Below, one piece after another: positions 1-17,080 of a stretch of DNA of 18,749 bases; position 1 is the first letter of the stretch, and every line of letters starts with the position of its first letter. The position numbers were made by a program, and so were the translations under genes. The notes beneath the pieces were generated by a model that worked only from the letters and a program-made list of their open reading frames with translations, did not search any database and was not told the origin of the DNA. The DNA is from Chloroflexota bacterium (GTDB lineage: Bacteria; Chloroflexota; Anaerolineae; Promineifilales; Promineifilaceae): assembly GCA_008501785.1 (NCBI GenBank), contig QQUD01000891.1:1-18749 (forward strand). Reading direction: 5' to 3'.

Positions 1-171
1 AGAAGTGATCGGTGTCTACAAACTGGCAGAGTTTGGTGTGCCCGAAGCGATGTGGGTGATTCGTGTTGAAGATTTCCCGGTGGTGGTGACGATGGACAGC
101 CACGGTAACAGCATCCACAAGAACATCGAAGCGGAATCGCAAGGTAAGTTTGCTGAGATTATTGGTGTTTA
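1..171 (+). CDS. Class I fumarate hydratase, C-terminal end (partial)
   Basis: Reading frame 2 is open from the window edge to TAA at 169-171 and gives 56 residues. It matches the C-terminal beta domain of class I iron-sulfur fumarate hydratases and L-tartrate dehydratases, which interconvert fumarate and malate in the TCA cycle. The recognisable block is the EAMWVIRVEDFPVVV stretch followed by TMDSHG, equivalent to the EAIWKIEVEDFPA...DDKG block of E. coli FumA. The start lies outside the window, so it cannot be said whether this is the intact gene or another 3' fragment. It is followed by its own intrinsic terminator at 196-235. Two further copies of the same gene end lie at about 979-1221 and 10661-10791. 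Family assignment is from recognised motifs; the [4Fe-4S] cysteines would lie upstream and are not visible. Confidence 0.8.
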
Positions 172-195
172 ATCACGAATAAGACGAATAGACGA

Positions 196-235
196 ATGGC
201 ACGAATGTTTTTGGATGTTCGTGCCATTTTTGTTT
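196..235 (+). terminator. Rho-independent terminator after fumarase 3' end
   Basis: A perfect 10-bp stem (ATGGCACGAA at 196-205 pairing with TTCGTGCCAT at 218-227) encloses a 12-nt loop and is followed by a T-rich tail from 228. It lies 25 nt after the fumarase stop. The same hairpin core follows the third fumarase copy near 10822, showing that gene end and terminator were copied together. Confidence 0.85.
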
Positions 236-282
236 CTTGACGATGTTCATGCTTGATATTTTGGTTAGCTGAGCAAACCAGT

Positions 283-501
283 CTACCGTTCTCTTCCTTC
301 TCGAATAAGATCTACGATTTCTTGGGTTGTTATTTTTGCTTTAATTGAGGGTACATCTAAAGGTGAACTGACGTTTCTTTCCGGTACTAAGGCAAAAGTG
401 CGTCCGTCCTTTCTCCGAATCAATACTTTGCCAGATGCGTCAGCTTGTTCGAGTAGTAAAGCAAGCTTTTGTCTGGCTTCTGAATAGGTGTAAACTTGCA
501 T
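283..501 (-). CDS. Phd/YefM-type antitoxin of a PIN-toxin module
   Basis: A 72-aa protein whose N-terminal half has the Phd/YefM pattern: a short beta strand, a helix with SEARQKLALLLEQA, then a strand pair ending in DGRTFALVPE. The charged C-terminal tail (about residues 50-72) would be the toxin-wrapping segment. Such antitoxins bind and neutralise the toxin and repress the operon. Its ATG lies 1 nt after the toxin stop, and its Shine-Dalgarno GGAGG sits in the last codons of the toxin gene, so translation is probably coupled. The toxin gene comes first, the reverse of the usual order. The palindrome at 917-930 over the promoter is the likely operator. Family assignment is confident; autoregulation is inferred. 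Confidence 0.85.
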   Translation of the reverse strand: MQVYTYSEARQKLALLLEQADASGKVLIRRKDGRTFALVPERNVSSPLDVPSIKAKITTQEIVDLIREGRER

Positions 502-502
502 G

Positions 503-895
503 TTAAACCTCCAACGTAACGATATTGAGTGTTTGAGCTGCTGTTTTCAGTTTCTGGTCGAGGGTTAGTAAAGGTGATTTATACCTGGTAGCGCAATCTA
601 AAAAATAGGCGTCATAAGCATGCATATTGGTTTGTTTGGATAGTTTCAAAGCGTTAAAAAAATCTGTTTCAACATACCGGATTGGAACCGTGTCAAATAT
701 TACTAAGCCCTTTTGCGCTTCATCAAGCGATAACCTGTCTTGTTTAAACATAGCTGAAAAGGCGTTGCCAACTTCCCACGGAATTGAGCCAGGACCAATC
801 AATGTATTTCCAGACGTTAATTCAATAATCTTTGTACGTTCTGGTTCACCAACGATCACTGCAATTAACGCAGATGTATCAATGACAATATCCAT
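503..895 (-). CDS. vapC: PIN-domain ribonuclease toxin (VapC family)
   Basis: A 130-aa PIN-domain protein, normal length for VapC. The acidic metal-binding residues expected of the family are present: D6 in VIDTSAL, E41 in IPWEVGNA, D95 in MHAYDAYFLD and a fourth acidic site at D113 in LTLDQKL. VapC toxins are Mg2+-dependent endoribonucleases, often cutting tRNA or rRNA when freed from the antitoxin; the target here is unknown. ATG at 895 is preceded by GGAG six bases upstream. The gene is read from a near-consensus promoter (923-950), and the antitoxin follows after a 1-nt gap. The module lies between two copies of the fumarase 3' end, which suggests an acquired insertion. Confidence 0.93.
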   Translation of the reverse strand: MDIVIDTSALIAVIVGEPERTKIIELTSGNTLIGPGSIPWEVGNAFSAMFKQDRLSLDEAQKGLVIFDTVPIRYVETDFFNALKLSKQTNMHAYDAYFLDCATRYKSPLLTLDQKLKTAAQTLNIVTLEV

Positions 896-916
896 ATCAA
901 TCTCCAGTGGTTAATA

Positions 917-950
917 TGTACAATTGTACAACTCATAAGCGTTTTGTCAA
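917..950 (-). promoter_or_regulatory. TA-module promoter with overlapping palindromic operator
   Basis: Read on the minus strand, TTGACA (complement of 945-950) is followed after 16 nt by TACAAT (complement of 923-928), close to the sigma-70 consensus. The perfect 14-bp palindrome TGTACAATTGTACA at 917-930 covers the -10 box. That placement fits autorepression by the antitoxin or toxin-antitoxin complex. The VapC ATG at 895 lies just downstream. The sequence match is direct; the repressor assignment is inference. Confidence 0.75.
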
Positions 951-978
951 GAACGCACGCTGATGCACATTGGAGGTT

Positions 979-1221
979 ATTGTTTGTCGTAACTCCAATT
1001 ACCTGCACGCTATCGGCGGCGCAGCCAGTTTGATTGCCCAATCTGTGAAAGAAGTGGTGGGCGTCTACAAACTGGCAGAGTTTGGCGTACCCGAAGCGAT
1101 GTGGGTGATTCGTGTTGAGGATTTCCCAGTTGTGGTGACGATGGACAGCCACGGTGTCAGCATGCACGACCAGATTGAAGCGAAATCGCAGGGTAATTTT
1201 GCTAAAATTGTTAGCGTTTAA
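979..1221 (+). pseudogene. Truncated class I fumarate hydratase 3' end (copy 2)
   Basis: About 80 codons align with the fumarase C-terminus: NYLHAIGGAASLIAQS, then VYKLAEFGVPEAMWVI and VEDFPVVVTMDSHG, ending at TAA 1219-1221. Similarity starts near 979-985, directly after the toxin-antitoxin promoter region. The beta domain and the [4Fe-4S] catalytic part needed for activity are mostly absent. A TTG at 970 could open an 83-aa frame but has no convincing ribosome-binding site. Its 3' part aligns colinearly with copy 1, and many differences fall at third codon positions. Unlike copies 1 and 3 it has no following terminator hairpin. It is most likely a non-functional remnant left by duplication or insertion at the fumarase 3' end. 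Confidence 0.75.
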
Positions 1222-1327
1222 CGACAGGTCTTTCAAGTGCTAAATTTGCTTCAGTTGAGGGGATTGGAAAAGTTTTAAACGAATCCTGACGCAAGGTTGT
1301 ACGCACTGTCAAAGCCTAATTTGGTCG

Positions 1328-1657
1328 TTAGCTTCTCGGTAGACGGCCGTCCCTGATCATGGCTATCACTTCTGTCGTGACATCTTTTCCACCTGCCAAA
1401 TTCACAATTACTGCCTCGATAGTATAAATAAAGCCCCATGGAAAGCCCCACCAACCCAGCAGCAGCGTTACCAGAGTATAGCCCAGCCCCTTAATGACCA
1501 CGCTTTCTCCAGCCTTGACAAAATAAACATCTGACCTGCGTCGGAAGGTGAGGATCAAACAAGAGATACAGTAATGAAACATCACAAACTTGCCCCCGTT
1601 TTGCAGTTCAAACCGCAAATCGCTCGTTGTCATCCCGTCGATGCCTTTGATTAACAT
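1328..1657 (-). CDS. Small membrane protein of unknown function
   Basis: A 109-aa protein, last gene of the minus-strand operon 3350-1328. Residues about 50-88 form a hydrophobic region rich in W and G (LGYTLVTLLLGWWGFPWG), probably a membrane hairpin, followed by a conserved-looking VNLAGGKDVT motif. The N-terminal half has HYCISC with two cysteines and a basic FRRRSDVYF segment. I recognise the general pattern as one seen in uncharacterised bacterial proteins but know no function. GGAGGG lies about 8 nt upstream of ATG 1657. It follows the GRDP-like gene after 58 nt, so it is probably co-transcribed. Its codons include one of the window's ACGGCCGT palindromes (1343-1350). Confidence 0.7.
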   Translation of the reverse strand: MLIKGIDGMTTSDLRFELQNGGKFVMFHYCISCLILTFRRRSDVYFVKAGESVVIKGLGYTLVTLLLGWWGFPWGFIYTIEAVIVNLAGGKDVTTEVIAMIRDGRLPRS

Positions 1658-1715
1658 AAGATTTACCCTCCATTGGTAGTTTAAGGTTTATATGCTTGCC
1701 TGAGTCACGCCATTC

Positions 1716-2333
1716 TCACCACGACCTAAGCAGCGGCCATGCCGGCACAATCAAATGGATGATTGCCAACATCAGAATGATCGTCCTGAATTTTAGAAAG
1801 CTTTTACGGGTAGGTTTGGGGATCACCCAATTCTTATTGAGGTCCACTCGCTGTATGCGCATGGTCGGAAATTGTCCTGGCTCAGGCCAGATATCGGCGG
1901 GCGGCTTTTCGCCAAAAACCCGCCGGTACGATGCCAGCGTCGCCATGTACCATTGATGAAAATTCTCTGATTCCGCTGCTGATCCGGCACTTGGAAAATG
2001 GTGTAAGGAGCGGGGCAGGTAGTTTCGACACAGATCGTTCCAATAAGAGTCGGTAAAAAGCAGGTGCAAATGCCACGCCTGGTCTACGGTGTAAGACGGG
2101 CTTACCGGTTCTCCCAACGCCGTCAGGATCAAAAACCTCATGTACTCAGCCAGAACACGCTGCGTGAATGAGAGGGACCACCTATTTTCTTGGGCCAATT
2201 TGCGACAAAATGCAGCTTGCGCCACAGCAGAACCAAATCTGAAAGTTTCAAGGTGATGGTCATAATTTGTGGTGCCCATCATGTTCCCTCTTTTTGGCTG
2301 CATCTGATCAACCACCTGCACATCAGCCGCCAT
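1716..2333 (-). CDS. GRDP/TIGR04222-like protein with C-terminal membrane anchor
   Basis: A 205-aa protein. Residues about 30-150 show the pattern of glycine-rich-domain-protein-like (GRDP-like) and TIGR04222-type proteins: RKLAQENRWS, an EYMRFL helix, then SPSYTVDQAWHLHLLFTDSY and a YRRVFGEKPPADIWP segment. The VDxxWHLHLL motif is the best marker. A single hydrophobic stretch near the C-terminus (TIILMLAIIHLIVPAWPLL) suggests membrane anchoring. The function of this family is not known. ATG 2333 overlaps the end of the GPP34-like gene by 11 nt. An internal ATG at 2282 or 2279 has a better ribosome-binding site (AGAGGG), so the true product may be about 187 aa starting just before the conserved part. 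Coupling to the gene upstream is certain from the overlap; its job is open. Confidence 0.75.
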   Translation of the reverse strand: MAADVQVVDQMQPKRGNMMGTTNYDHHLETFRFGSAVAQAAFCRKLAQENRWSLSFTQRVLAEYMRFLILTALGEPVSPSYTVDQAWHLHLLFTDSYWNDLCRNYLPRSLHHFPSAGSAAESENFHQWYMATLASYRRVFGEKPPADIWPEPGQFPTMRIQRVDLNKNWVIPKPTRKSFLKFRTIILMLAIIHLIVPAWPLLRSW

Positions 2334-2973
2334 AGGCAGCTTCTTCTTCCAGTTCTTTGATTATTTGGTGAAGCAGTCGAGCTGCTGTCTCCAGCGAAAC
2401 AGTGAGCGGTGAAAGTTCAGATAGCTGCTTAAGGCGCTTTTGCCGGGTCTTGAGTTCATTTGCACGCAGCGGTAATAGAGAGGATTGTTCGTAGCCTTGC
2501 ATGATTGCTAGCAAAGCTGCAATCTCTTCAGGCACGGCATCGTTTCCCATAATGGCGGTGCGAATGGCATGATGAAGCGCTTGTTTGGGAGCCTGATTGA
2601 TCAGGGGATACACTGTAACTGGAAAGAAAAGGAGAACCTTCTTTTTTTGCGCATGGCATAGTTGACGAACGACCATTGAGGCCTGCTGTTTTTTAAGAAC
2701 CTGGCCGTCCGGTAAATTTAACAGGTCATTAACAGGCATCTTATTTCGCACTATGCGCAGCACCTCGTCGGTGGCTGCGTGTCCAACCGATTGGCGAGTC
2801 TTGACGCTTAAATTTAAGCCGTCAAACTCGATTCGTCCCTGCTTTGTTAAATCGGCAATTGCGGCCAGCGTGAACATCGATACGTTACCGGTTGTTTTGC
2901 CGGCATCGTTCACAAGCAAGAGGAACATAAGGTCCATCATGCGTAAATTTTGTGTATTCCAGCTTGCTGTCAT
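2323..2973 (-). CDS. GPP34 (GOLPH3-like) family protein
   Basis: A 216-aa protein resembling the GPP34/Golgi phosphoprotein 3 fold: a helical N-terminus (LMFLLLVNDAGKT), then LAAIADLTKQGRIEFDG, a block typical of the family, and an all-helical remainder with a charged C-terminus. Eukaryotic GOLPH3 binds phosphatidylinositol-4-phosphate on Golgi membranes; bacterial members are largely uncharacterised, so lipid binding is only suggested. The gene starts with ATG overlapping the previous stop as TAATG and has GGAGGG seven nt upstream. Its end overlaps the GRDP-like gene. It forms the centre of a four-gene unit whose other members look membrane-associated or uncharacterised, supporting a peripheral membrane role. 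Confidence 0.75.
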   Translation of the reverse strand: MTASWNTQNLRMMDLMFLLLVNDAGKTTGNVSMFTLAAIADLTKQGRIEFDGLNLSVKTRQSVGHAATDEVLRIVRNKMPVNDLLNLPDGQVLKKQQASMVVRQLCHAQKKKVLLFFPVTVYPLINQAPKQALHHAIRTAIMGNDAVPEEIAALLAIMQGYEQSSLLPLRANELKTRQKRLKQLSELSPLTVSLETAARLLHQIIKELEEEAAYGG

Positions 2974-3350
2974 TACTTTACCCTCCGCACAATGAGATAT
3001 GTTTTGACCTTATCGCCATTGGCGTTCTTTTGCCAGGAGAGGCTGGCCCATACTTTAGAGGTGCCCCCGAAAGAGGTATTCGCCAAGTTAGGTTGTTCGG
3101 CCTCGCCACAAATCGGACCGGATTTTTGGAACCACAACCGGGCCACAAATGACCATTCGTTTTTGTCGGGCTGGATGCAGACTTCCTCCTCACCGACCGA
3201 GGTTACCTGTCCCTTAAACTCATATACCCAGTAAATAGTGGGGAAATTAAACACATTGATCAGGATGATGAAAACAATCACCCCCACCACCAGGTTGCCG
3301 AGCCACTTCTGTTCAACCGGCGTGGTGGCGCTATTCGTTGTTGTACTCAT
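2973..3350 (-). CDS. Single-pass membrane protein of unknown function
   Basis: First gene of the operon, 125 aa. Start chosen at ATG 3350 because AAGGAG-type sequence (AAGGAGAAAG) lies just upstream; a longer frame opening at 3425 runs through the inverted repeat at 3365-3416 and is unlikely. Residues 18-43 hold one hydrophobic segment (LVVGVIVFIILINVF), followed by an apparently extracytoplasmic domain with two cysteines, in EEVCIQPD and GPICGEAE, that could pair, and a basic end. It has no recognised family. The stop codon overlaps the GPP34 start by 1 nt, which couples the two. Confidence 0.7.
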   Translation of the reverse strand: MSTTTNSATTPVEQKWLGNLVVGVIVFIILINVFNFPTIYWVYEFKGQVTSVGEEEVCIQPDKNEWSFVARLWFQKSGPICGEAEQPNLANTSFGGTSKVWASLSWQKNANGDKVKTYLIVRRVK

Positions 3351-3364
3351 GCGTCTTTCTCCTT

Positions 3365-3416
3365 GTAAATCGAACATCTTGTTCGATGATCGGTCCGAAC
3401 AAGATGTTCGGATTAC
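3365..3416. repeat. REP-like double-palindrome element
   Basis: Two 21-nt arms (3365-3385 and 3396-3416) pair with only two mismatches around a 10-nt loop. The inner 15 nt match exactly: CGAACATCTTGTTCG against CGAACAAGATGTTCG. Each arm is itself a small hairpin (CGAACA/TGTTCG), so the element can fold as one long stem or as two short ones. The outer ends read GTAA and TTAC. The same layout with another core occurs at 16417-16482. It lies just upstream of the operon start at 3350. Confidence 0.7.
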
Positions 3417-3559
3417 GACTTTCATCCTTCGCGGTTCGCTGCGGAGCGTGCTCTATCTTTTGGGAATGTTTAATTGGGTTGACTTGACTATGGCTCAGTA
3501 TGCCAAAAGCTGTGGTTAAGTTCGATAGATGAACGCTGAGGAGTCGCTGAGTAAACAAT

Positions 3560-3595
3560 AAAAAAGGCTCTGCGATTTTTGAAAATCGCAGAGCC
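3560..3595 (-). terminator. Rho-independent terminator of the giant kinase gene
   Basis: A 14-bp perfect stem with a 2-nt centre (GGCTCTGCGATTTT at 3566-3579 and its complement at 3582-3595) is followed, in minus-strand reading, by six T residues (3560-3565). It begins 22 nt after the kinase stop. The core TGCGATTT...AAATCGCA resembles the core of the REP-like element at 16417. Confidence 0.9.
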
Positions 3596-3617
3596 TTTAC
3601 GGTAATTGTGTAATGAT

Positions 3618-6600
3618 TTATTCGTCTGGGATTTCCAACAGAAGTTCCCGCAGCACCTTGGCAGTAAATGGGTTTTCCCCAGCCTTTAAGATACTAATCC
3701 AATCTTCTCGCTTTGATTTGAGAACCTTTTTATCGTTACCAGTGTATTCGGTCTCAAACCATTCCACCACTTTCTCAAAATCTTCAATCGCACCCTCGTA
3801 GTCTCCGGTCAAAGCACGGGCTAACCCCCTGCTATCAAGAATTTTTTCATCCTCAGGAGCGAGTTCGACGGCCGTTTTACAATTTATCATCACTTCATCG
3901 ACTTTACCCAATAAACTACCAACCCAGCAAAGACCGTTGTGAGCATTCGCATTGTCGGGGTCGCTCTCAATGGCCCGGATGAAATCGGCAAGCGTGTCAT
4001 CGTACCGCTTCAGTTTATAATTAACCTTGGCCAAACCCGTGTAGGCAAGTGCAAAGTCAGGGTCGATTTCAATGGCCCGATTGTAATCAGCAATGGCATC
4101 ATCATATTGCTCCAGGTCATAATAAACAATGCCCCGACCATTGTAAGGCAATGCAAAGTCAGGGTCGATTTCAGTGGCGCGAGTGTAATCAGCAATGGCC
4201 TGGGCGCGGGTGTAATCAGTGATGGTCATGTCGTCCTGCCCTTTTTGATAATAAGCAATACCACGATTGTAAAAGGCGAATGCATACTCAGGGTCGATTT
4301 CAATGGCCCGATTGTAATCAGCAATGGCATCATCATATTGCTCCAGGTCATAATAAACAATGCCCCGACCATTGTAAGGAAATGCAAAGTCAGGGTCGAT
4401 TTCAGTGGCGCGGGTGTAATCAGCAATGGCCTGGGCGCGGGTGTTATCAGTGATGGCCACGTCGTCCTGCCCTTTTTCAAAATAAGCAATACCGCGATTG
4501 TAGAAGGCGAATGCAAACTCAGGGTCGATTTCAATGGCGTGAGTGTAATCAGCGATGGCCACGTCGTGTTGCTCTAATTCATAATAAGCAATACCGCGAT
4601 TGTTGTAAGCGACGACGGCAATACTTTCAGAGTTGTCGCTGCTAATGGCTTGGGTGAGGCTTATAGCTTGAGTATAGTAGATAATCGCATTGTTGGGATC
4701 TCCATGTGGCGTCCCATAAAGCCAGCCTAGACGAAATAGCGCGCCATCTAACCCCTCAGGTATATTACCATAAAGAAGAAGGTCGTTTATCTCGTCTTTT
4801 ATATCTTCCAATAATGGCGGACGGTCATTGCATGGTTTAGGATTATCTAGAGAACGAGCATCTGAAGAAAGAATTTCGTCTACCCCGCATTCTGCCAAAT
4901 TGATGGCTTGGTCATACTGTCCATTTAGGTAATGCGAATGGCTAACGGCAAATAATGACAAAAACTCGAGATGATCAGGTAATTCCTTAAACACAAATTT
5001 ATTAAGGTAATCATCAAGAGGGTCAAACTGGTTTATATCTCCCGTGACATGAACCGAAGCCGCTTCGAAGTCAGGGTGCTTCAATTCGAGAAAGTTCACG
5101 CGTATTTTCCCAGCGGTATCCTCACCCCAAATCACTATACTGGCATTGTATTGCTCTCCAATTTCTCTAGCCATAGTCGTAGATTCCCCTTCATCGTTCA
5201 AGATATGTTGTGTCAATTCCACTCGAACCATTTCCAGATCCTTCTCTCGGTCTACGGTATCTTGAATCTCATAAAGAATTCCGACCTCAGGTTCGGTGTC
5301 GTTTTTTTCAGGTTTACTAAAAGTAAAAATGAGTATCAGGATTTCGTCTTTAGCTGCAGCAGAAATTTCCGTACCGTTTCTATTTAAGAGAATGACTGAG
5401 GGAGGAGAAACATTAAAGTATAATAATAGCCCAGAGAGGCAGGCAACACAGGTGCAGGAGGCCAGAAGGAACACCGCAATTCCCACTATCTTCGGTTGGT
5501 TAGTAGCTACTTGTGGGCGTTGTTTCTGAGTATCTTTTTGGGGACCAGGTTTTAGGATGTCACAAACAGCAGCGGCGGCCCAAAAGGCGGTTTGTTTGGG
5601 AATTGAACGGCCGTTTTTATCCTGCATGGCGTCCAGGTCTTTAAACCGCAATGTGCCTAGCAAATAAACGATCAGCCCCAGGTAGTACTGGTAATTGTTG
5701 CTGCGACTGGTGATGTACGATTTTGCTTCATCGCGCAGTTGGGCCAGCAACTCGAATGGCTTTTTTAACTGTTCCGGAATATCGTGGGAGATTGTGGATT
5801 GCCCAATCTTAAATGTCTCCTGGTCCAACTTGCAGTAAAAGTCGTAAATAATCCTGGGGAGTTGTTCACCTTCATCATGGCATAATTCGGCCACGATTTT
5901 GGTAATTATCCGGCTTTCATAAGTCAAAAAATCGTGCAGCACTTTGTCCTGGCGCATTTGCGCAAAATCAATCAGGTAAAGGGCATCCCCTGGAGTTTCG
6001 ATTAAAACATTTTCCAGGTTAAGGTCGCCGTGGATAACGCCGCTGCGGATGCCGTCCATAAATTTCGCCAACGTTGGTTCCAGGGCCAGCCACGGGTTGG
6101 GTACCATTTTGTTAAGCACAGGGAGGTCAAGGTAAGGGGCTTGCTGCCAGTTAACGGCCGTTCCCAATACCTTTCCCAAAATTTCGTGGAAACTGTCAGC
6201 CCGGGTCGATTGCACAATGCCTTGAATATCGTGTGGGATAAGGTGACCAATCTGATAGCGAACATAAGGCTGCATCGCCTCAGCCGATTGAAAATTTAGC
6301 CGCAGCGTGTAACAACTATCAACTTCTGCCGGTGAACGCAAAAAAAGTGCAAAATTGGTAGGATCAACCTTAACCAGGATAAATTGCTGGTCAACCACCC
6401 GCACCGGATCACCCTTTTTGAATTCACCCAGCAGTACATCGGACCTTATTTTAGCAGGAGCCTGAATGGATGACCCATCATTGGGACAATCAACCACCAA
6501 ATCGACGGGCAGTAAGAAGCTAAAATGTTTACGCACGGAATAGCTTCTTTCAGCCTGAACCTCACCTGTCGATTGCCAAATGTTTTTCATCTCTTTTAGC

Positions 6601-8006
6601 AGAGCTTTCTGTTTGTCTAAAACATCATCTATGTTATTGTCCGGCGAAAGATAATATTGATGCAGGCTATTGACTCGTGCTTCACCATCTCCAGCCATTG
6701 AATAGCGCAGTCCACCCCATCCCAGACCAAGCTCCGGTACTTCAATCGGCTTGCCGATAGATTTAACACATTTTAAGGAAAATTTTCGCGCCGCTTCAGC
6801 CTTTTGGATGAATTGCTCATACGCCAGATATTCTCTCAGGATGACGCTCTGGGCTGCAACTTTTATGACGCTATGTGCTTCATTGGTGCTGTGACTGATC
6901 GGCCGCACTTCATAAACATAAGCCCCGCTAAGTCCCCCATCAAATTGCCGCCTGACGGTTACCTCCTTATACTTTTCCTCTACAAACATTTTTTCTAACA
7001 CTACTTTTCCTTCTTCCGATAAGAGGTGATTGGGATCAACAATCCTTGGAGAAGTAATTGGGGGCAATTGATCAATATCACTTAACAAGGTGATCGTAGT
7101 TGACACTGGGGAGGCATAGGGTAAGGTTTGTATCTGTGGCTTGAGTTCACTCAGTGCTTCATCCATTTCGGTAACGGTTTGAAAGCGGGCAGTGGGGTCT
7201 TTGGCAAGGGCTTTGAGGATAACTTCTTCCAACTGAATAGGTAGAACTGGATAAATAGAGGTGGGCTGCGGGGGTTCCTCATCGCAAATAATGTGTTTAT
7301 CTGCCAGGGTCTTGATTTGAAAAGGCAGTTGGCCGGTTGTTAATTCGAACAGGATAATGCCTAATGAGTAAATATCAGAACGGCCGTCAACGCCTTGCGA
7401 ATTACATCCGGCTTGTTCTGGAGACATATAAGGTGGCGTTCCACTTACTCGTCGGGAGCTTCCTTCAACAGCTTCTTTGAGTTCGGCAATTCCAAAATCT
7501 GTTAAAATGGGTTGATAGCCAAATTCTGATGCTGTTTTTTTAGCCAGCATGATATTTTCAGCCTTCAGATCCAGGTGCCAGATATTTTTATCATGAGCCT
7601 TTTGCACTGCAGGACAAAGTTCGTGAATAAGCCAGATGGCTTCTTCTAGCCCCAGCCAAGATTGGTTGGCCCTTAATCTATGGAGGCGTTTGCCTAAATT
7701 TTCACCTTCGACGAAGTCCATAACAATATAAAGTCGATCTCGGTTGCGCCCCCCATTAAACCCAAAATCGTGAATAGAGACGGTCCCTGGGTCTTCACCA
7801 AGCTCGGCCATAATTTTTGCTTCGACCTGAAAAAGCTGACGAAACGCAGGCACTTCTGCATAATCCGGTCTGATGACTTTAATCGCGGAACGAATTGTGG
7901 GTATTTTATGGTGACGCGCTTCGTAGACTGTTCCCATCCCTCCTTCCTCGATTATTCTGATTGTTTCAAAATTTCCATAAAGCTCCTTGTGTTCCTTTTG
8001 AATCAT
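3618..8006 (-). CDS. Transmembrane Ser/Thr protein kinase with second kinase-like domain and TPR array
   Basis: A 1462-aa protein starting at ATG 8006, chosen for the AAGGAGAG just upstream rather than GTG 8039. Residues about 9-290 are a complete Hanks-type kinase: glycine loop EEGGMG at 20-25, lysine K43 in AIKVI, catalytic HLDLKAEN at 144-151, DFG at 170-172, and SPEQ at 195-198. Residues about 335-780 look like a second, aminoglycoside-phosphotransferase-like fold: VIKVA with K382, HGDLNLEN at 659-666, IDFAQ with D680. Its two lobes are separated by an unusually long insert. It could be a ternary-complex-associated (TCAD9-type) domain, from memory only. One TM segment lies at about 840-865. 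Then come an extracytoplasmic domain with YNASIVIWG (about 887-975) and eight or nine TPRs (about 1089-1417). It is probably a sensor kinase phosphorylating cytoplasmic proteins. Upstream are an IMPase and an ATPase/wHTH gene on the same strand. Confidence 0.93.
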   Translation of the reverse strand: MIQKEHKELYGNFETIRIIEEGGMGTVYEARHHKIPTIRSAIKVIRPDYAEVPAFRQLFQVEAKIMAELGEDPGTVSIHDFGFNGGRNRDRLYIVMDFVEGENLGKRLHRLRANQSWLGLEEAIWLIHELCPAVQKAHDKNIWHLDLKAENIMLAKKTASEFGYQPILTDFGIAELKEAVEGSSRRVSGTPPYMSPEQAGCNSQGVDGRSDIYSLGIILFELTTGQLPFQIKTLADKHIICDEEPPQPTSIYPVLPIQLEEVILKALAKDPTARFQTVTEMDEALSELKPQIQTLPYASPVSTTITLLSDIDQLPPITSPRIVDPNHLLSEEGKVVLEKMFVEEKYKEVTVRRQFDGGLSGAYVYEVRPISHSTNEAHSVIKVAAQSVILREYLAYEQFIQKAEAARKFSLKCVKSIGKPIEVPELGLGWGGLRYSMAGDGEARVNSLHQYYLSPDNNIDDVLDKQKALLKEMKNIWQSTGEVQAERSYSVRKHFSFLLPVDLVVDCPNDGSSIQAPAKIRSDVLLGEFKKGDPVRVVDQQFILVKVDPTNFALFLRSPAEVDSCYTLRLNFQSAEAMQPYVRYQIGHLIPHDIQGIVQSTRADSFHEILGKVLGTAVNWQQAPYLDLPVLNKMVPNPWLALEPTLAKFMDGIRSGVIHGDLNLENVLIETPGDALYLIDFAQMRQDKVLHDFLTYESRIITKIVAELCHDEGEQLPRIIYDFYCKLDQETFKIGQSTISHDIPEQLKKPFELLAQLRDEAKSYITSRSNNYQYYLGLIVYLLGTLRFKDLDAMQDKNGRSIPKQTAFWAAAAVCDILKPGPQKDTQKQRPQVATNQPKIVGIAVFLLASCTCVACLSGLLLYFNVSPPSVILLNRNGTEISAAAKDEILILIFTFSKPEKNDTEPEVGILYEIQDTVDREKDLEMVRVELTQHILNDEGESTTMAREIGEQYNASIVIWGEDTAGKIRVNFLELKHPDFEAASVHVTGDINQFDPLDDYLNKFVFKELPDHLEFLSLFAVSHSHYLNGQYDQAINLAECGVDEILSSDARSLDNPKPCNDRPPLLEDIKDEINDLLLYGNIPEGLDGALFRLGWLYGTPHGDPNNAIIYYTQAISLTQAISSDNSESIAVVAYNNRGIAYYELEQHDVAIADYTHAIEIDPEFAFAFYNRGIAYFEKGQDDVAITDNTRAQAIADYTRATEIDPDFAFPYNGRGIVYYDLEQYDDAIADYNRAIEIDPEYAFAFYNRGIAYYQKGQDDMTITDYTRAQAIADYTRATEIDPDFALPYNGRGIVYYDLEQYDDAIADYNRAIEIDPDFALAYTGLAKVNYKLKRYDDTLADFIRAIESDPDNANAHNGLCWVGSLLGKVDEVMINCKTAVELAPEDEKILDSRGLARALTGDYEGAIEDFEKVVEWFETEYTGNDKKVLKSKREDWISILKAGENPFTAKVLRELLLEIPDE
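4061..4522 (-). repeat. Two tandem 231-bp repeats inside the TPR region
   Basis: Copies at 4061-4291 and 4292-4522 differ at about 10 positions by eye (about 96% identity); the first 87 nt are identical. Each encodes 77 residues, one 34-aa TPR plus one 43-aa TPR. The longer one carries an extra nine residues through a duplicated AIADYTRA-like helix segment. A third, more diverged half-copy starts at 4523. The similarity points to a recent duplication, and the repeat may vary in copy number between strains. Confidence 0.9.
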
Positions 8007-8093
8007 TTCTCTCCTTTCCAGATTTTTGCTAAACAGCACATCAATATATGTTTTAATTGGTTATGTCTTTAGCGGTATGTAATTAGTTCATGA

Positions 8094-8915
8094 TCACGTA
8101 GCTCTGGATAACCTGGTTTTACTGCTGATTGCTTTCCGTACCTCCGCCACCACCAGCGGATGCCCTGCTACAATCGGCTCGGGCGTGGGGCAGCCATTCA
8201 CCAGCACGGTCAGGTCAACCGGCCGACCAGACAAGTAGCGTAATTCACCGCCCGCTTGCTGCAAAATGAGAACTCCCGCAGCGATGTCCCACAGCCTGGC
8301 TTGGGGAATGAAGGCAGCAGTGGCCGAACCGCGGGCGGTATAGACTAGGCTGGCATTCATGTTACCCAGGGCGCGAATTCGAGGGATATTGATCTCGAAA
8401 TGATAGTGTGCCCCGGCGCTGACGGCCAGGAAACCTAGACCATTCCAATCTGATGAAACAGTTTTGCGTAAAGGTTGCCCGTTACAATAAGTTCCGGCTG
8501 GCGTGGCGTAGGTTAGGTCTGCCAACAGCGGCATATGGTATAGTCCCATTACTGGCCTACTCTGGTAGAACAATCCTACCGAGATACCCCAGCCTGGCAA
8601 GCCGCGCACAAAACAAGTTGTGCCATCAAGCGCATCGATACCCCAGGTGTAAGGTGAACGGGTTTGAGGATAGCGACCTTCTTCGGCCAGTAGGTTGTGA
8701 TCTGGATAGGCAAGACGAATTTGGTTGGTTAAAAACTGCTCAAGCTTGAGGTCCGTGGTTGTAAGCAAGGTGCCATCAGCTTTTAATGGCAGTAGCTTTA
8801 CGCTTTCGAAATCACGCAACGCCATTTCACCGGCTTGTTTTACCCAGGTAATGGCTTGATCGAGTATAGTAGCTAACTCGTTTGGTTGAGGGGAGCGGCA
8901 AATTTGAGGTGACAT
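8094..8915 (-). CDS. Inositol monophosphatase family protein
   Basis: A 273-aa member of the IMPase superfamily of Mg2+-dependent, Li+-sensitive phosphatases. Metal- and substrate-binding motifs are in place: LLAEEG with E78/E79, WGIDALDGTTCFVRG with D94 and D97, and RLWDIAAG with D210 before the C-terminal helix. Substrate cannot be told from sequence; relatives act on inositol phosphates, histidinol phosphate, fructose bisphosphate or phosphoadenosine phosphate. Start ATG 8915 has AGGAG seven nt upstream. It lies between the ATPase/wHTH gene (136-nt gap) and the giant kinase (87-nt gap), all on one strand, so co-transcription is possible but the gaps are too wide to insist. Confidence 0.9.
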   Translation of the reverse strand: MSPQICRSPQPNELATILDQAITWVKQAGEMALRDFESVKLLPLKADGTLLTTTDLKLEQFLTNQIRLAYPDHNLLAEEGRYPQTRSPYTWGIDALDGTTCFVRGLPGWGISVGLFYQSRPVMGLYHMPLLADLTYATPAGTYCNGQPLRKTVSSDWNGLGFLAVSAGAHYHFEINIPRIRALGNMNASLVYTARGSATAAFIPQARLWDIAAGVLILQQAGGELRYLSGRPVDLTVLVNGCPTPEPIVAGHPLVVAEVRKAISSKTRLSRAT

Positions 8916-9051
8916 ATTTATCTCCTAAAGGTTGACTAAATTCTCCCAGTATAGTTAATTTTCGAGCCAAATTCTCTCGTTTAACGCTGATGAAACTGTG
9001 AGGAATCGTAAAAAATAAACCACCATAGTAAGCTTGACTGCTGCGCTTTCC

Positions 9052-10476
9052 TTACTGTTCTGGACGACCTTCTGGGTAAAGTTTGTACCCTCCTCTGGGG
9101 TGACGACCCCAGGAAATGATAAAACGCGGATTTGAGGAGTCCTCCTCAATCTTTTTACGCAATCCGGACACCAATTGTTGAACGTTGTTTACCATAATCG
9201 TTTTGTCATATTGTTCATCCAGGGTCCAAACTTCATTGAGCAATGTCTCGTATTCATGTTCCTTATGCGCTTCATGTTGCAACATAAAGGAGAGTAGCGT
9301 CCGTTCCTGTGGCGTTAAATTTGTTACCAGGGTTTCCCCCTGGAATAGCTCATTTGTGACTGAGTCGAGGCGCAGGCCACCCCGGCTGACCGGTCCCATC
9401 ATTTCGATATAGGCCGCCAGTAGTTTGCCCCTCATTTGCCAGCCGGGTCCCCTTTTAAAGCACAGACCTTTTTCAGCCAGACGCCGTAAAGTAGCATCTC
9501 GTTCGATTTCCAACAGTGAGGTCCCTTTGCTGCCGGATTTCTTATGTTTGGACGGCTGTTGTCTCTTGTGGATGGTTGCTAGAGTAAACTGTTCTATCTG
9601 GGTCAATCCGTGCCACAACTTGGTTAGCTGCTGTTCCACGACCGGTTCGGTTATCAATATCTTGTGCCAATCAGTCAAGGATGGTTTGTCGGATTGATTC
9701 AACCACCATAGTCCAATCGCTCGCAGCAATGAGGGGAAGCCTCCGCTAAGGGTTAACATAGTCTGGACCTCTGCTGTGGTAGGTGACTGCGGTGCGGAAT
9801 AAGTAGTCTGGTTGATCACCCAACGAGCATCGGCTTCGTTCATGGCCCCGACCCAGCAGATTTGGTAAAGGAGTAATCCAGAGAATGTATCTGTAAAGCC
9901 TTTTGCGTCGGATAGGTAAGCTGCTTCTTGAGTCATTCCGGCGATAAAACAAAGGGTGTCTCTAAAGCTGTCGCGCAGGCCACGCAAAGTGTCGAGTGTT
10001 TGTGGGCGGGTGGACTGAGTAAAACGATCAAAGTGATTGAGTGCCAGGACCAACTGGACTTCCTTCTCCTGCAGAGCAAAGAGCAGTTCGTGTAAACCAC
10101 TTTGGGCTAGAAAAGGGCTTTGGGTAGGTCGATATTCCTGATAAAAGGCAACAATTGTTTCTTGAAGGTGGCTGGGAAAACGGTGGCGTACCCAATAGAT
10201 AGCCCGCAGGATGACCAGGTAAAGTGTGATCGGGTCGTGAGAGGGCAAGTGATTAAGGTCTATGGGGACGAGGATAATGGTTCCGGTCTCCGGCGGTAAA
10301 TAGCCCTGGACAATGTCGGGGCGGTGACATAAAAAGTTGAGCAGTGTGCTTCGCCCACAGCCGGGCAATCCAATCACTGTGCCACTTTCGCAGGTTGCTA
10401 TCCAACGGGTTAAAAGGCGCATCTCGTCGGCGCGGTAGGTTTGAGGATAGCGTTCCCAAACGCGTAGGTTAGGCAT
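9052..10476 (-). CDS. AAA/STAND-like ATPase with C-terminal OmpR-type winged helix
   Basis: A 474-aa protein. The N-terminal part (about 1-300) is a P-loop NTPase: Walker A GLPGCGRST at 36-44 and Walker B-like VLALNHFDRF near 143-152, followed by a sensor-like ITEP and helical region. The C-terminal 90 residues are an OmpR/PhoB-type winged helix: LTPQERTLLSFML, NNVQQLVSGLRKKIEED as recognition helix, and HPRGGYKLY as wing. It is probably a DNA-binding regulator whose activity depends on nucleotide or ligand sensing. Walker A has Arg in place of the usual Lys, and Walker B has NH where DE is common, so catalysis may be weak or lost. ATG 10476 is preceded by GGAGG. Target genes are unknown; the IMPase and giant kinase lie directly downstream. 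Confidence 0.85.
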   Translation of the reverse strand: MPNLRVWERYPQTYRADEMRLLTRWIATCESGTVIGLPGCGRSTLLNFLCHRPDIVQGYLPPETGTIILVPIDLNHLPSHDPITLYLVILRAIYWVRHRFPSHLQETIVAFYQEYRPTQSPFLAQSGLHELLFALQEKEVQLVLALNHFDRFTQSTRPQTLDTLRGLRDSFRDTLCFIAGMTQEAAYLSDAKGFTDTFSGLLLYQICWVGAMNEADARWVINQTTYSAPQSPTTAEVQTMLTLSGGFPSLLRAIGLWWLNQSDKPSLTDWHKILITEPVVEQQLTKLWHGLTQIEQFTLATIHKRQQPSKHKKSGSKGTSLLEIERDATLRRLAEKGLCFKRGPGWQMRGKLLAAYIEMMGPVSRGGLRLDSVTNELFQGETLVTNLTPQERTLLSFMLQHEAHKEHEYETLLNEVWTLDEQYDKTIMVNNVQQLVSGLRKKIEEDSSNPRFIISWGRHPRGGYKLYPEGRPEQ

Positions 10477-10660
10477 GGTTCCTCCACATTTTCCTTACAT
10501 TTGTGAACTTTAATTAGTGTTGTATGCTAATCTCGTTGTTGTTTTACAAAATATGGCGAATAAGGTTCCAATACACCTTCAAAACAAGCATAGGAAAACT
10601 ATAGTTTATTTACATGTTTCCGACAAGTTTCACATTAATCATGTGCATTTGACTGGGTGA
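10477..10660. other. Gene-free spacer
   Basis: AT-rich 184-nt spacer between the ATPase/wHTH gene (minus) and the third fumarase fragment (plus). It must hold the promoter of the minus-strand gene, but only weak boxes are visible (a TTGTAA and CATACA pair 17 nt apart). No ORF, RNA or repeat is recognised. Confidence 0.4.
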
Positions 10661-10791
10661 GGAAAGCGATGTGGGTGATTCGCGTTGAAGATTTCCCCGT
10701 CGTAGTCACGATGGACAGCCACGGCGGCAGCATTCACAAGCACATTGAAGCAGAGTCGCAGGGCAAGTTTGCTAAGATTGTTGGCGTTTAA
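10661..10791 (+). pseudogene. Truncated class I fumarate hydratase 3' end (copy 3)
   Basis: The last 43 codons of the fumarase reading frame, ending at TAA 10789-10791 (EAMWVI-like start, VEDFPVVVTMDSHG, then IEAESQGKFAKIVGV). By eye about 85% identical to copy 1 in DNA, with most differences silent. An ATG at 10669 within it opens a 40-aa frame and happens to have GAGGA six nt upstream, so a short peptide could be made, but no fumarase function is possible. It carries the same terminator as copy 1. Together with copies 1 and 2 it forms a set of direct repeats in the same orientation. Confidence 0.8.
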
Positions 10792-10821
10792 AGAAATACG
10801 AATTTAACGAATTGATGAATG

Positions 10822-10856
10822 GCACGAATGTCTTTTGGATGTTCGTGCTTTTTTTT
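10822..10856 (+). terminator. Rho-independent terminator after fumarase copy 3
   Basis: GCACGAA (10822-10828) pairs with TTCGTGC (10842-10848) and is followed by eight T residues (10849-10856). Loop and flanks closely match the hairpin at 196-235. Confidence 0.85.
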
Positions 10857-10919
10857 GTGGAGGAAACGGCCGTTTCCCCTAAATGCCCCTCTGAAATTAT
10901 CAGCATAAACTGTGTTATT

Positions 10920-12521
10920 TTATCTCTTTGATTGTTTGATGATTTTTTGAGTTGCGTACCACCCTGTTAGCATGGCAATGGGTACACCTGCAGGCGCATA
11001 TGCCCACTGACCAGCTTTAAATACGCCTGGAATCGAGGTTAAAACAGAATTTGGAATATCTTTCAATTTATCGACCACAGGGATGTTTGTTTCAAAAGAC
11101 CAGCCGGTAATCGCCCCCTCAGAACTTCCAGAAACCTTATTAATTGTCAGTGGTGACGATGAAAATTTAAAGAGGATGTCATTATCAAATCCATCATAAA
11201 GGGTTTCAGAAAAAATTCTAACAATGCAGTTTTCCAATGTCTCTTTAAACTCATCATACCAGCCAGCTTTTTCAATTTTTTTGATAATTTCATAATCAAA
11301 TAGACAGCTTATCAAAACGCCTGTTTGTCCCTCCGGCGCTAAGGTTGGGTCGCGGAGCACGGGCACAGAAACTTCATACGTGTTTAAATTACAGAACTTG
11401 TCTAACCAGGTTAATATCTCCCCTTTGGATTTACTGTCAAAATCATCTATGAGATTTTCTCTTTCCCCGCGAATCGTCTCTCCTAAGCCTGTTTTTGAAG
11501 GGGTATAGAATAGATGCTCACCACCGTTTGTTTGAAAATAGGAAGGTGGACGATCTACAGCAATAAACAAAATGAAGACAGATTCCGCTCCTTTGGCAGA
11601 AAGAATTATCTGAGCCTCAGATTCGATTTTATGTGTTAGTTTTGCATCTAATCCTACTGGGTTCAGGTTTCGATAAAGCGTTTTTAAATCTGCTGCCCAT
11701 ATTAGCTGATCATAGCTGTAGTGATTGCCGTCTGAGTCTTCGACTGTCGATTCTGATGGATTGACTTCAATAATTTGCGTATTCAGTTTTATTTCGCCGC
11801 CCCAATCCAATATCTTTTCTTTCAAAATATTGGCCAAAGCAACGGTTCCACCTTTTGGATAAAAATAATCAAGGTAAACGTAGAAATAACCCAACGCGAA
11901 ATTGGTAGGCGTTTTCCTGAAAAACAGTTGGGTCAATATATCGATTAAAGAGCGGTTGTCGGTTAGCCGTTCCAGACTTTCTTCCATTGGCATGTTAAAC
12001 TGATTCAACTTTTTCAAAGCGTGTAGAAATTTAAATGTCCAGGGAATTAATTCTCTAAAAATGAATTTTTTGTTGTTCTTTAGGTCTACAAAATTAGGAT
12101 TGTCAAATTCATATAAAACTTTTGTGTACTCAGATAATTTGTAAATGATGGATATTATTTTTTCTATATCCTCAATGTTTTCGGGATACAATTTGCAGAG
12201 TACCCGTTTGTATTCCTCGGCGGCTTCCATTGAATCGATACAAAATAGTTCATCTTCAATGCCGATGGAAATTTTATTGTCTAAAAAGTCCCAACTGATG
12301 CCTAAATCTTTTAGCATTGGCTTAACAATGCCGGAATTGACAAAGGCCCTTGGACCGGAGTCAAAGAAAAATCCATTGGTTTCAAAGGTATGTAACAATC
12401 CACCTGTACGATCATTTTTATCTAGTAGTAAAACGTTGAAATTGTCCCTAGCCAAATAGGCGGCTGCTGTTAAACCTGCCATGCCAGCGCCAACAATTAC
12501 GATTCTTTTTTCCGTTGTCAA
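10920..12521 (-). CDS. Phytoene desaturase/carotenoid isomerase-like FAD oxidoreductase
   Basis: A 533-aa flavoprotein. The N-terminus has the Rossmann motif IVIVGAGMAGLTAA (GxGxxG at 11-16), an acidic end of the second strand at D34, then RTGGLL, the usual FAD-binding signature. The C-terminus ends with VFKAGQWAYAPAGVPIAMLTG, the second FAD contact typical of CrtI/CrtISO and retinol-saturase relatives. These enzymes desaturate, isomerise or saturate polyene and isoprenoid chains; the substrate here is unknown. The start is TTG 12521, inside the SDR stop (TTGA, 4-nt overlap) with AGGTGA upstream; the next Met would lose the GxGxxG, so TTG is needed. It forms a two-gene unit with the SDR. The pair looks more AT-rich than its neighbours, which could mean later acquisition. 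Confidence 0.88.
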   Translation of the reverse strand: MTTEKRIVIVGAGMAGLTAAAYLARDNFNVLLLDKNDRTGGLLHTFETNGFFFDSGPRAFVNSGIVKPMLKDLGISWDFLDNKISIGIEDELFCIDSMEAAEEYKRVLCKLYPENIEDIEKIISIIYKLSEYTKVLYEFDNPNFVDLKNNKKFIFRELIPWTFKFLHALKKLNQFNMPMEESLERLTDNRSLIDILTQLFFRKTPTNFALGYFYVYLDYFYPKGGTVALANILKEKILDWGGEIKLNTQIIEVNPSESTVEDSDGNHYSYDQLIWAADLKTLYRNLNPVGLDAKLTHKIESEAQIILSAKGAESVFILFIAVDRPPSYFQTNGGEHLFYTPSKTGLGETIRGERENLIDDFDSKSKGEILTWLDKFCNLNTYEVSVPVLRDPTLAPEGQTGVLISCLFDYEIIKKIEKAGWYDEFKETLENCIVRIFSETLYDGFDNDILFKFSSSPLTINKVSGSSEGAITGWSFETNIPVVDKLKDIPNSVLTSIPGVFKAGQWAYAPAGVPIAMLTGWYATQKIIKQSKR

Positions 12522-13456
12522 TTTAGTTCACCTAGCTTTTTACTTATTGCCCACAATTCTTCTGCTGCGTCCTTGTCCAATGCTGGGGGGGCAGGTTCTT
12601 CTTCTGTGGTGAGATTAAAAAACTTGCCAGAAATGTTGTTTAAATCAGCAGAAACACCCAGGTAATAAAGGGCTTCTGCAGAAACATGTGAAGATTGGGC
12701 TGTTCTATCAACAATTAACCGCTTGAAGAACTTGTAAATTCTTCCATTGTTTTGACCACTGTTTGTTTTGACATTGCCGGGGTGCATCGCATTGATGGTG
12801 ACGCCGGTTCCGGCAAATTGCTCGTTGAATTTTAACATTGATAGCAGTTGCGCAGTTTTTGCCGCGCCATAACTCCGCAAGCCAGCGTAAAAATGTTTTT
12901 CCCAGGCGAGATCGTCTAAATATAATCCGGAAACAGCGAATCGATGTGCTTCAGAATTGACAAATAGGATGCGCCCTTTATTTTGGGTGATGAGTTTTTC
13001 TCTAAGGTAGTGATTTAAAACAAAGGTGCTGAGATAATTTGTTTGAAACACCATTTCCAGCTTGTCTTCTGTAAACGTCCTTTTGGTTACGAATACACCG
13101 GCATTGTGAATGAGTACATCGATGTTTCTGTCGTATGCTGCCAATTGTTTTCCGACAGCGTGAACGTCTGCTAATTTTGAAAAATCTGCAAGTATGTAGG
13201 TGCAGTTTGTGTTGAATTCTCTTTTTAATGTTTCACACAGTTCTATTGATTTTTGTTCGTTTCTGTTGACCGTTAAAATATCGGCTCCATATGATGCGTA
13301 TTTTTTTGCGGTTGCATAACCGATTCCTGAGGTTGCTCCGGTGATGACAAGTAAACGGCCGTTAAACGCATCCGTACAAATTTTAGGGTCTAATTTTAAA
13401 TTGCGCACCATTGCGCCAATATTAGACCATTTATACGCTTTTAGATATCTTCTCAA
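12518..13456 (-). CDS. Short-chain dehydrogenase/reductase, retinol-dehydrogenase-like
   Basis: A 312-aa classical-type SDR using NAD(P)H. Visible: cofactor motif TGATSGIG at 39-46, HNAG at 117-120, catalytic S168 in FVNSEAH and the SYGAAK site with Y196 and K200, then the MHPGNVKT segment after the active site. Arg65 after the second strand (VNRNE) suggests NADP preference. Its pattern is closest to WW-domain oxidoreductase/retinol dehydrogenase relatives. It starts with TTG 13456, four nt after GGAGG, and overlaps the downstream flavoprotein, so the two probably act on one substrate, perhaps an isoprenoid alcohol or aldehyde (inference). Confidence 0.9.
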   Translation of the reverse strand: MRRYLKAYKWSNIGAMVRNLKLDPKICTDAFNGRLLVITGATSGIGYATAKKYASYGADILTVNRNEQKSIELCETLKREFNTNCTYILADFSKLADVHAVGKQLAAYDRNIDVLIHNAGVFVTKRTFTEDKLEMVFQTNYLSTFVLNHYLREKLITQNKGRILFVNSEAHRFAVSGLYLDDLAWEKHFYAGLRSYGAAKTAQLLSMLKFNEQFAGTGVTINAMHPGNVKTNSGQNNGRIYKFFKRLIVDRTAQSSHVSAEALYYLGVSADLNNISGKFFNLTTEEEPAPPALDKDAAEELWAISKKLGELN

Positions 13457-13528
13457 GTTGCCTCCAAGGCATATGGATGTCTAAATGGAAATCTGTATTG
13501 CTCCCTGATACCCTGCTTCACTACTTAA

Positions 13529-13558
13529 ATTATAGATTGATTGTGGTTTTCAAGAAAA
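13529..13558 (-). promoter_or_regulatory. Possible promoter of the SDR-flavoprotein pair
   Basis: The minus strand holds a perfect TATAAT (complement of 13529-13534) about 75 nt before the SDR start. The -35 region is poor: a TTGAAA lies only 13 nt away, and at 17 nt the match is weak. The call rests on the -10 box and position. Confidence 0.35.
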
Positions 13559-13633
13559 TTTATTAATAATTAATATTCCTTGATTATGGAGAAAGGCGGC
13601 TGGAAGCAATGGAAGGAGGGGGGAACGTTTTGG

Positions 13634-13649
13634 AAAACGGCCGTTTTCA
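13634..13649. repeat. Extended ACGGCCGT palindrome
   Basis: The ten ACGGCCGT sites in the window start at 1343, 3868, 5607, 6154, 7380, 10866, 13355, 13637, 15036 and 16520. In spacers the symmetry is longer: GGAAACGGCCGTTTCC near 10863, GAAAACGGCCGTTTTC here, GGGAAACGGCCGTTTCCC near 15031, and a G6/C6-flanked version with one base missing near 16514. Confidence 0.85.
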
Positions 13650-14612: not shown

Positions 14613-14622
14613 GATTTCCCCC

Positions 14623-15006
14623 CTAAAACAACCTCGCCTGCCTCGGTTGCTGCTCCTGCCCCGGGCCACGCCACTGATAAACCTTCAAGTCAATCTTATC
14701 CTTCACAAACAGGATTCCCTCTTCCTCCAGCAGTTGTTGCTGTTGCTTTGCACCCGGCCTATCGCTGATCTTCCCTTGCGAATTGATGACACGCTGCCAC
14801 GGCACATCAGTTGGACAGGCTGCCATCGCATTGCCCACCCAGCGTGGGCCGAATGCTTTGTAATCTTCAGACGCAATGCCCACAGGCGCGGCTAGCATTT
14901 GGGCGATCTGTCCGTAGGTGGCAACGTAGCTGTACGGAATTTGGCGGACCAGATGCCAAACTTGTTCGTAATATGCCTGCTCGTTTGGTGGGTATGTGTA
15001 ATCCAT
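14623..15006 (-). CDS. Alkyltransferase-like protein (MGMT family, ATL)
   Basis: A 127-aa protein of the O6-methylguanine-DNA methyltransferase DNA-binding domain family: YVATYGQIAQML (helix-turn-helix region), RWVGNAMAACP at 55-65, and PWQRVINSQG at 69-78. Active MGMT has PCHRV; here Trp70 replaces the acceptor Cys, the hallmark of ATL proteins, which bind O6-alkylguanine without repairing it and hand it to nucleotide excision repair. The usual His next to it is Gln here, a further deviation. Length fits ATL. ATG 15006 lacks a strong ribosome-binding site. The C-terminal tail is Q/R-rich. Confidence 0.9.
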   Translation of the reverse strand: MDYTYPPNEQAYYEQVWHLVRQIPYSYVATYGQIAQMLAAPVGIASEDYKAFGPRWVGNAMAACPTDVPWQRVINSQGKISDRPGAKQQQQLLEEEGILFVKDKIDLKVYQWRGPGQEQQPRQARLF

Positions 15007-15082
15007 TTGTGATATTCCGTTACAACTGGTGGGAAACGGCCGTTTCCCCTCCCATATTACTCAAAAAATCCCGCTGTAAGTT

Positions 15083-16264: not shown

Positions 16265-16416
16265 AACATCTCATTTCCACTGGTTTGGATTTTTAGGGTA
16301 AATATGAGGATGGGGGAGTCATGTGTTCGTCATTTTCCTGTCTCGAAATAAGATTAACACGAATGAGATGAATGGACGAATGGTTGAGATTTGGGGGGGC
16401 AGTTTTCTTATATACC

Positions 16417-16482: not shown

Positions 16483-16545
16483 AAGTCCGACTTCTGAAAA
16501 ACCCTAGATTGGGGGGGGAACGGCCGTTTCCCCCCTCAAAACCTG

Positions 16546-17007: not shown

Positions 17008-17080
17008 GTGCTGCCTTTGTTTTTGCGAGTTGAGAGACCCATCAGTATGCTGAACTGCATTGGGACGGGCATGGAGCGGA

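Follow-up and report, generated by a model that had tools for sequence, protein, structure and literature searches.

The contig QQUD01000891.1, analyzed here over its whole length of 18,749 nt (hereafter the window), carries the 3′ end of a class I fumarase beta gene (Fumerase_C domain) in three copies, all on one strand, which bracket a PhdYefM/PIN gene pair and a 9.4-kb block of other genes. Chance is no explanation for this arrangement. On balance, we lean toward the reading that these copies, called c1, c2, and c3 from left to right, are diverged versions of one gene end and record that DNA from related species was acquired twice in succession, each time by an insertion anchored in homology on one side and joined without homology at its far side. 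Such a process is of a known kind, and what is new is its setting, in which ordinary genes serve as landing sites.

Three diverged copies of a fumarase gene end

The first copy, c1 (positions 1 to 172, plus strand), is open at the window start and ends with its native stop codon, a TAA at 170 to 172. The left edge of c2 (approximately 1000 to 1221, plus strand) was set by homology to intact relatives, its open reading frame (ORF) as listed beginning at 970, and c3 lies at 10664 to 10791 (plus strand). Fumerase_C (PF05683, cut-off of 22.2 bits) was recognized at 39.4 bits in c1 and 62.3 bits in c2 by a Pfam scan of these two copies. When 49 fumarase loci were compared by tblastn at an E value of at most 1e-5, 48 were matched by c1, all 49 by c2, and 47 by c3. 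DNA identity was 86.0% between c1 and c2 (over 172 nt), 85.6% between c1 and c3 (over 187 nt, terminator included), and 84.7% between c2 and c3 (over 131 nt). Each copy retains the native stop and is free of internal stops. An ACGAAT-rich terminator common to c1 and c3 lies at 175 to 231 (plus strand; stem at 194 to 229, 16 pairs) and at 10798 to 10855 (plus strand), respectively, and is missing behind c2. Homology, alignment, and, for c1 and c2, Pfam therefore bear out an original prediction, made from the letters of the window alone, of three direct plus-strand copies that all keep the native stop codon and of which the first and third share a terminator; the ends that it placed at 171, 1221, and 10791 hold for c2 and c3, the stop of c1 ending one base later than predicted.

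We then asked how the copies differ over 42 codons, stop excluded, relative to 5000 randomization runs with the same number of random changes. The pair c1 and c3 is separated by 13 synonymous and 6 other changes (synonymous divergence, dS, of 0.83; ratio of nonsynonymous to synonymous divergence, dN/dS, of 0.07), c2 and c3 by 11 and 9 (dS 0.64; dN/dS 0.15), and c1 and c2 by 7 and 12 (dS 0.35; dN/dS 0.37). A synonymous count as high as that observed arose by random change in 0 of the 5000 runs for c1 and c3 and in 0.06% for c2 and c3. Since the divergence of these two pairs is mostly synonymous, the ends involved appear to have diverged within selected, working genes, probably in different genomes, and for the same reason c3 does not look like a local copy that has long been decaying. 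The longest exact runs between the repeats are 29 nt for c1 and c2 and 19 nt for each of the other two pairs.

The window appears to span a complete contig whose first base falls within c1. Because an 83-aa c2 fragment including the 5′ junction is found as one protein sequence on three contigs, the longest of 18,749 bases, assembly yielded the c2 junction repeatedly, with the proviso that the other two contigs may share the same sample.

According to the preferred reading, the incoming DNA would each time have comprised the 3′ end of a donor fumarase gene and its downstream cargo. Homologous recombination would have paired this DNA with the recipient fumarase gene, and its far end would have been joined without homology inside the 3′ part of the recipient gene. 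The donor end would keep the recipient gene whole, and the recipient's own end would be left downstream as a fragment. In a first event, c2 and the 9.4-kb block would have entered and displaced c3 with its native terminator; in a second, c1, its terminator, and the toxin-antitoxin (TA) pair would have entered and displaced c2. We infer this order of events and the join itself, and the full-length gene upstream of c1 would lie outside the window.

Displaced gene ends in related genomes

Relatives were sought in the class and, within it, in 56 genomes of the one Anaerolineae order whose lineage the window resembles (see below; genomes and loci are cited by our G and L numbers). The fumarase end was matched in 143 of 396 genomes of the class (E ≤ 0.001), and two matches occurred only in G002 and G163. 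In G163, fumA-fumB is intact, and a second contig carries a fumarase end that lacks fumA; this truncated end (87.3% DNA identity over 518 nt, dN/dS 0.03) joins unrelated DNA on its left side. An inverted repeat in L099 (2574 to 2638, with AAGTGACTGTCACGGGGC at 2574 and GCCCCGTGACAGTCACTT at 2621) abuts that left edge. A dispersed intergenic repeat of 102 nt, 84 to 89% identical and present on three contigs (L098, 6550 to 6651; L099, 1346 to 1447; L113, 8795 to 8887), suggests that the G163 contigs come from one organism. The second match of G002 was rejected as a displaced end because it reflects an assembly overlap of exactly 127 nt between two contigs, and so was the truncated fumarase of G096 (L127), before which fumA stands. 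In G236, G382, and G033, matches are truncated by the end of a contig; these were left unjudged and could hide displaced ends. Short fumarase proteins with an unrelated N terminus (7 of the 120 listed, from 311 matches) lay on contigs of about 1.2 kb or less at the longest and were not used, and three pattern matches in viral contigs gave no confirmed fumarase relative.

To look beyond fumarase, a scan for partial gene copies was run on 2,008,398 bases of the order (1,462 ORFs). This set includes loci selected because of fumarase or the ATPase-like protein described below, counts about 20 kb of G014 (L106) twice, and was read by a scan that is blind to scars split over two contigs, as in G163. 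Six matches of the 3′ type and one of the 5′ type were returned. The 5′ match, 53 kb away, was dropped, as were two of the 3′ type that lie in L187 ahead of tandem paralogs. The four matches kept lie at three further genes, all in G414. There, an intact thioredoxin-like gene is followed by a small gene, a 108-nt end (75.0% identical), a 16-kb stretch with genes resembling those for nonribosomal peptide synthetases, and a 234-nt end (88.0%), a triple array with the same layout as the window. A dehydratase gene is followed by a GNAT gene and a 267-nt end (87.6% identical; dN/dS 0.10), and a methyltransferase gene by a Gp49/HTH pair and a 142-nt end (88.7% identical; dN/dS 0.29). Nothing was kept from a control set of 814,032 bases and 683 ORFs, where three matches of the 3′ type came from a single tandem-repeat ORF of L127 and two of the 5′ type lay on the opposite strand in L025. 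As a positive check, the scan recovered icd/icdC of Escherichia coli when given that region.

Two of the G414 sites could be compared with those of relatives. At the methyltransferase site of G413, the left flank is kept (82%), pieces of the right flank are 76 to 84% identical with two genes swapped in order, and an HNH gene stands where G414 carries the Gp49/HTH pair, the displaced methyltransferase end, and a 256-aa gene; no displaced end occurs at this site. Two more G414 genes further to the right (192 and 415 aa) have no counterpart in the 8 kb of G413 that were read. Gene fragments scattered without relation to variable cargo, which the original prediction had named as the finding that would speak against it, are not what this comparison reveals: the flanks are conserved, the cargo differs, and the displaced end is present only in G414. 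At the dehydratase site of G412, neither the GNAT gene nor a displaced end occurs in the 1.5 kb behind the gene, and the flank differs. In G414, the dehydratase end that was restored and the one that was displaced share 88% identity, and either matches G412 at 81 to 82%, which suggests that the donor stood nearer to G414 than G412 does. In G413 (C26), locus L283 carries on the minus strand (5284 to 5741) a truncated 3′ part of the thioredoxin gene (residues 73 to 240); the DNA upstream of it is unrelated, and 0.7 kb downstream lies a DUF433/DUF5615 pair.

Cargo and lineage

The named ORFs of the window were scanned with Pfam, and most of them, the 1473-aa protein excepted, also with PHROGs and NCBIfam; small overlapping ORFs were left out. 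Between c1 and c2 lie a predicted antitoxin of the Phd/YefM family (283 to 501, minus strand; PF02604, 30.7 bits for a cut-off of 29.8) and a predicted toxin with a PIN domain (503 to 895, minus strand; PF01850, 40.7 bits for a cut-off of 23.6), adjacent genes with the layout of a predicted type II TA system. The PIN toxin has matches in 6 of the 56 order genomes (E ≤ 1e-10). The block between c2 and c3 (1222 to 10663) contains three ORFs without a family (1328 to 1657, 1716 to 2333, and 2973 to 3425), a GPP34 family protein (2323 to 2973, minus strand; PF05719, 68.6 bits), a 1473-aa kinase-TCAD9-TPR protein that is a predicted conflict-system component (3618 to 8039, minus strand; PF00069, PF19974, and TPRs), an inositol monophosphatase family protein (8094 to 8915, minus strand; PF00459), and an ATPase-like protein with a C-terminal winged helix (9052 to 10476, minus strand; PF00486), the ATPase call being made from sequence, with no Pfam ATPase match. 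PADLOC models match the kinase part of the 1473-aa protein, and its TPR part contains long internal repeats at 3941 to 4609, spaced by 102 and 231 nt. No tRNA was found in the window.

The ATPase-like protein has matches in 14 of the 56 order genomes. Its relatives were found in 16 places, 15 of which were read as loci; a match to the TCAD9 part lay within 4.2 kb of the relative in 10 of the 15 and within 0.7 kb in 7. The partner in L120 is a kinase-TCAD9 protein with WD40 repeats instead of TPRs, EAD7 occurs in three of the relatives' loci, and NACHT was above the cut-off in one locus and a STAND-like domain below it in another. Since ATPase-like relatives adjoin TCAD9 proteins elsewhere, the block carries what is, by prediction, a TCAD9-type module. 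The scanned window proteins include TCAD9, lack EAD, and contain no domains of the MoxR-vWA core that characterizes the NTP-dependent conflict systems of Kaur et al. (2020, PMC7159879), in the main text of which the word TCAD does not appear.

The palindrome ACGGCCGT occurs 10 times in the window compared to 0.17 expected, with five sites in the block (1343, 3868, 5607, 6154, and 7380) and five to its right (10866, 13355, 13637, 15036, and 16520). At least four copies (0.8 to 2.2 per kb) are present in 12 of the 49 fumarase loci, most of which are recorded as Chloroflexota; all 12 belong to the one Anaerolineae order, and the other 37 loci hold none or one, including L004 and L006 of the order, which are devoid of it. 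Density reaches 1.48 to 2.07 per kb in three long contigs of the order and is about 0.5 in the window. We take ACGGCCGT to resemble a HIP1-type iterated palindrome, and a literature search returned no paper pairing “highly iterated palindrome” with “Chloroflexi.” Judged by this signature, both the host and the block resemble the lineage of this order, the TA interval being too short for such a judgment. The host bacterium likely belongs to an uncultured Chloroflexota order, and the sharing of ACGGCCGT by host, block, and one Anaerolineae order points to a relative as the likely donor. Related donors fit the preferred reading, since homologous anchoring needs donors with a similar fumarase gene. 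The right flank (10920 to 18594) is a patchwork of minus-strand genes with a G+C content of 36 to 54%, and extended palindromes (like GGAAACGGCCGTTTCC) are found at 10858 to 10884, 13629 to 13655, 15028 to 15054, and 16512 to 16538, at or just behind the 3′ ends of these genes at four gene boundaries.

Mode of entry and comparison with known systems

Each cargo has a homologous gene end on its left (c1 and c2), and the left edges of the displaced copies are abrupt. Displaced copy c2 begins 222 nt from the gene end and c3 128 nt from it, about 90 bp apart in gene position, and the left edges of the two thioredoxin copies of G414 differ by 110 nt. No 5-mer was common to at least three of the seven left edges of the window and the other genes, which are scattered and share no fixed core at which every insertion starts. 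Thioredoxin copy 2 does start at a ACGGCCGT half-site and the other left edges are without ACGGCCGT; the palindrome was dropped as an unproven join point, closer alignment having placed the start of thioredoxin copy 1 further upstream. No integrase or phage module was detected among the scanned window ORFs with Pfam, PHROGs, or NCBIfam, in agreement with the original prediction. With left edges that differ, cargo that is small, and no integrase among the scanned ORFs, the evidence favors homologous anchoring, the far end being joined without homology, over a single site-specific recombinase. Two successive insertions, as originally proposed for the TA pair and the block, fit best, whereas a mobile island of the integrase type fits less well than homologous exchange or cassette accretion at a hotspot, the alternative named at the time, given the scattered edges and the missing integrase. 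DNA uptake is possible in the order, where the ComEC family is found in 50 of 56 genomes compared to 10 of 14 control genomes, a difference that does not discriminate.

Other routes to the same layout were considered. Cargo lying between gene ends could excise by homologous recombination as an Rhs-like circle and re-enter another fumarase 3′ end by one homologous crossover, with no illegitimate join. Such a model, which has been proposed for rhs tips (PMC2935791), yields the same final order and expects variable fragment lengths; we nonetheless regard it as unlikely, as the repeats are 14 to 15% diverged with exact runs of at most 29 nt, so that RecA-mediated excision should be inefficient, and no circle was seen. 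We consider improbable a role for integrative elements of the site-specific type that would attach in the 3′ end of fumarase and whose integrases would have been lost or act in trans. The 3′ ends of genes are usual targets of integrative elements, and icd/e14 of E. coli combines the same kind of scar with an integrase. However, no integrase was found among the scanned ORFs of the TA interval or the block, one gene shows two differing left edges with no core common to all seven, and a cargo of 0.6 to 1.2 kb at four places (the TA interval of the window and three in G414) is too small for an element that integrates itself.

That the gene end was duplicated locally, with unrelated insertions and decay to follow, seems very improbable: the copies do lie on one strand and near each other, and c1 and c2 taken alone carry no clear selection signal, but the changes separating each of them from c3 are mostly synonymous with frames intact, and the fragments differ in length and have cargo between them. 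We likewise give hardly any credence to an assembly chimera of several related strains. The contig does start inside a repeat, and the 127-nt overlap of G002 at the same gene end is k-mer-like, but the c2 fragment with its junction is found on three contigs, c2 and c3 have left edges that look like joins without homology, and the same layout occurs inside G414 contigs of 513 and 560 kb.

Several observations weigh against homology-anchored insertion from related species. An integrase-borne prophage leaves a similar scar at icd, and the scar alone is silent on mechanism. The comparison of c1 with c2 shows no clear selection (10% of random runs, P = 0.10), the 108-nt thioredoxin end of G414 is decayed (75%), and the other thioredoxin copy holds two internal stops. 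While 23 of the 56 order genomes match the fumarase end, 21 of them strongly, only G163 among these has a true displaced end, and neither an empty fumarase site nor a donor arrangement was found among the genomes examined. All three additional genes come from G414 (1.09 Mb scanned), nothing was kept in the other 0.92 Mb of the order, and enrichment in the order is not proven, the control (0.81 Mb) being too small. Finally, because GPP34 (E ≤ 1e-8) and an amine oxidase-like gene of the right flank (E ≤ 1e-60) have no match in the 56 order genomes at these thresholds, parts of the block and flank may derive from further away.

A broader proposal can be made only tentatively, namely, that genes are gained without an integrase across the genomes of this order, with 3′ ends of ordinary core genes acting as landing sites at which congener DNA (ends about 85 to 88% identical) stacks TA pairs, biosynthetic clusters, and defense-like modules. 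Every insertion would make the gene whole again, and the end that it replaces would persist as a dated scar. If this is true, displaced core-gene ends would be readable footprints of recombinase-free horizontal gain, each telling where the DNA entered, how closely the donor was related, and in what order the events took place, and would explain TA pairs and defense-like modules on chromosomes with no mobile element beside them. Such scars could be searched for in any genome as diverged 3′ fragments just downstream of intact genes.

Among known systems, e14 at icd of E. coli K-12 resembles the window in its restored gene end and in a displaced 3′ end 15 kb downstream. That end measures 165 nt, 153 of them identical, and the original objection that repeats of 130 to 240 bp are too long for attachment sites fails on this example. 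The annotation of e14 includes intE, xisE, and phage genes, none of which was found among the scanned window ORFs. The minimal mobile elements of Neisseria are variable cargo beside conserved genes, exchanged through recombination in the flanking genes; displaced gene ends are not known to be part of their definition, which sets them apart from the window.

Parallels are also found in polymorphic toxins. Effector displacement in the type VI secretion system (T6SS) of Vibrio, which leaves arrays of orphan immunity genes, is attributed by its authors to homology-facilitated illegitimate recombination and, as described there (PMC5361080), shares with the preferred reading of the window a homologous upstream anchor, an old 3′ end pushed downstream, and events that stack. 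Displacement of Rhs C termini, in the account given in PMC2935791, likewise leaves series of detached 3′ fragments downstream of an intact gene and involves related donors only; a comparable stack is seen in the window, where any intact gene would lie outside, and behind an intact gene in the thioredoxin-like array of G414. The circles proposed for Rhs have near-identical cores and differing tips, whereas the ends in the window are homologous and 14 to 15% diverged. Moreover, Rhs and T6SS genes encode polymorphic toxins with a variable tip, and in the T6SS arrays the variable trait is the gene end itself, the toxin, whereas the window displays the fumarase beta end of a conserved metabolic gene, and its cargo is unrelated to that gene.

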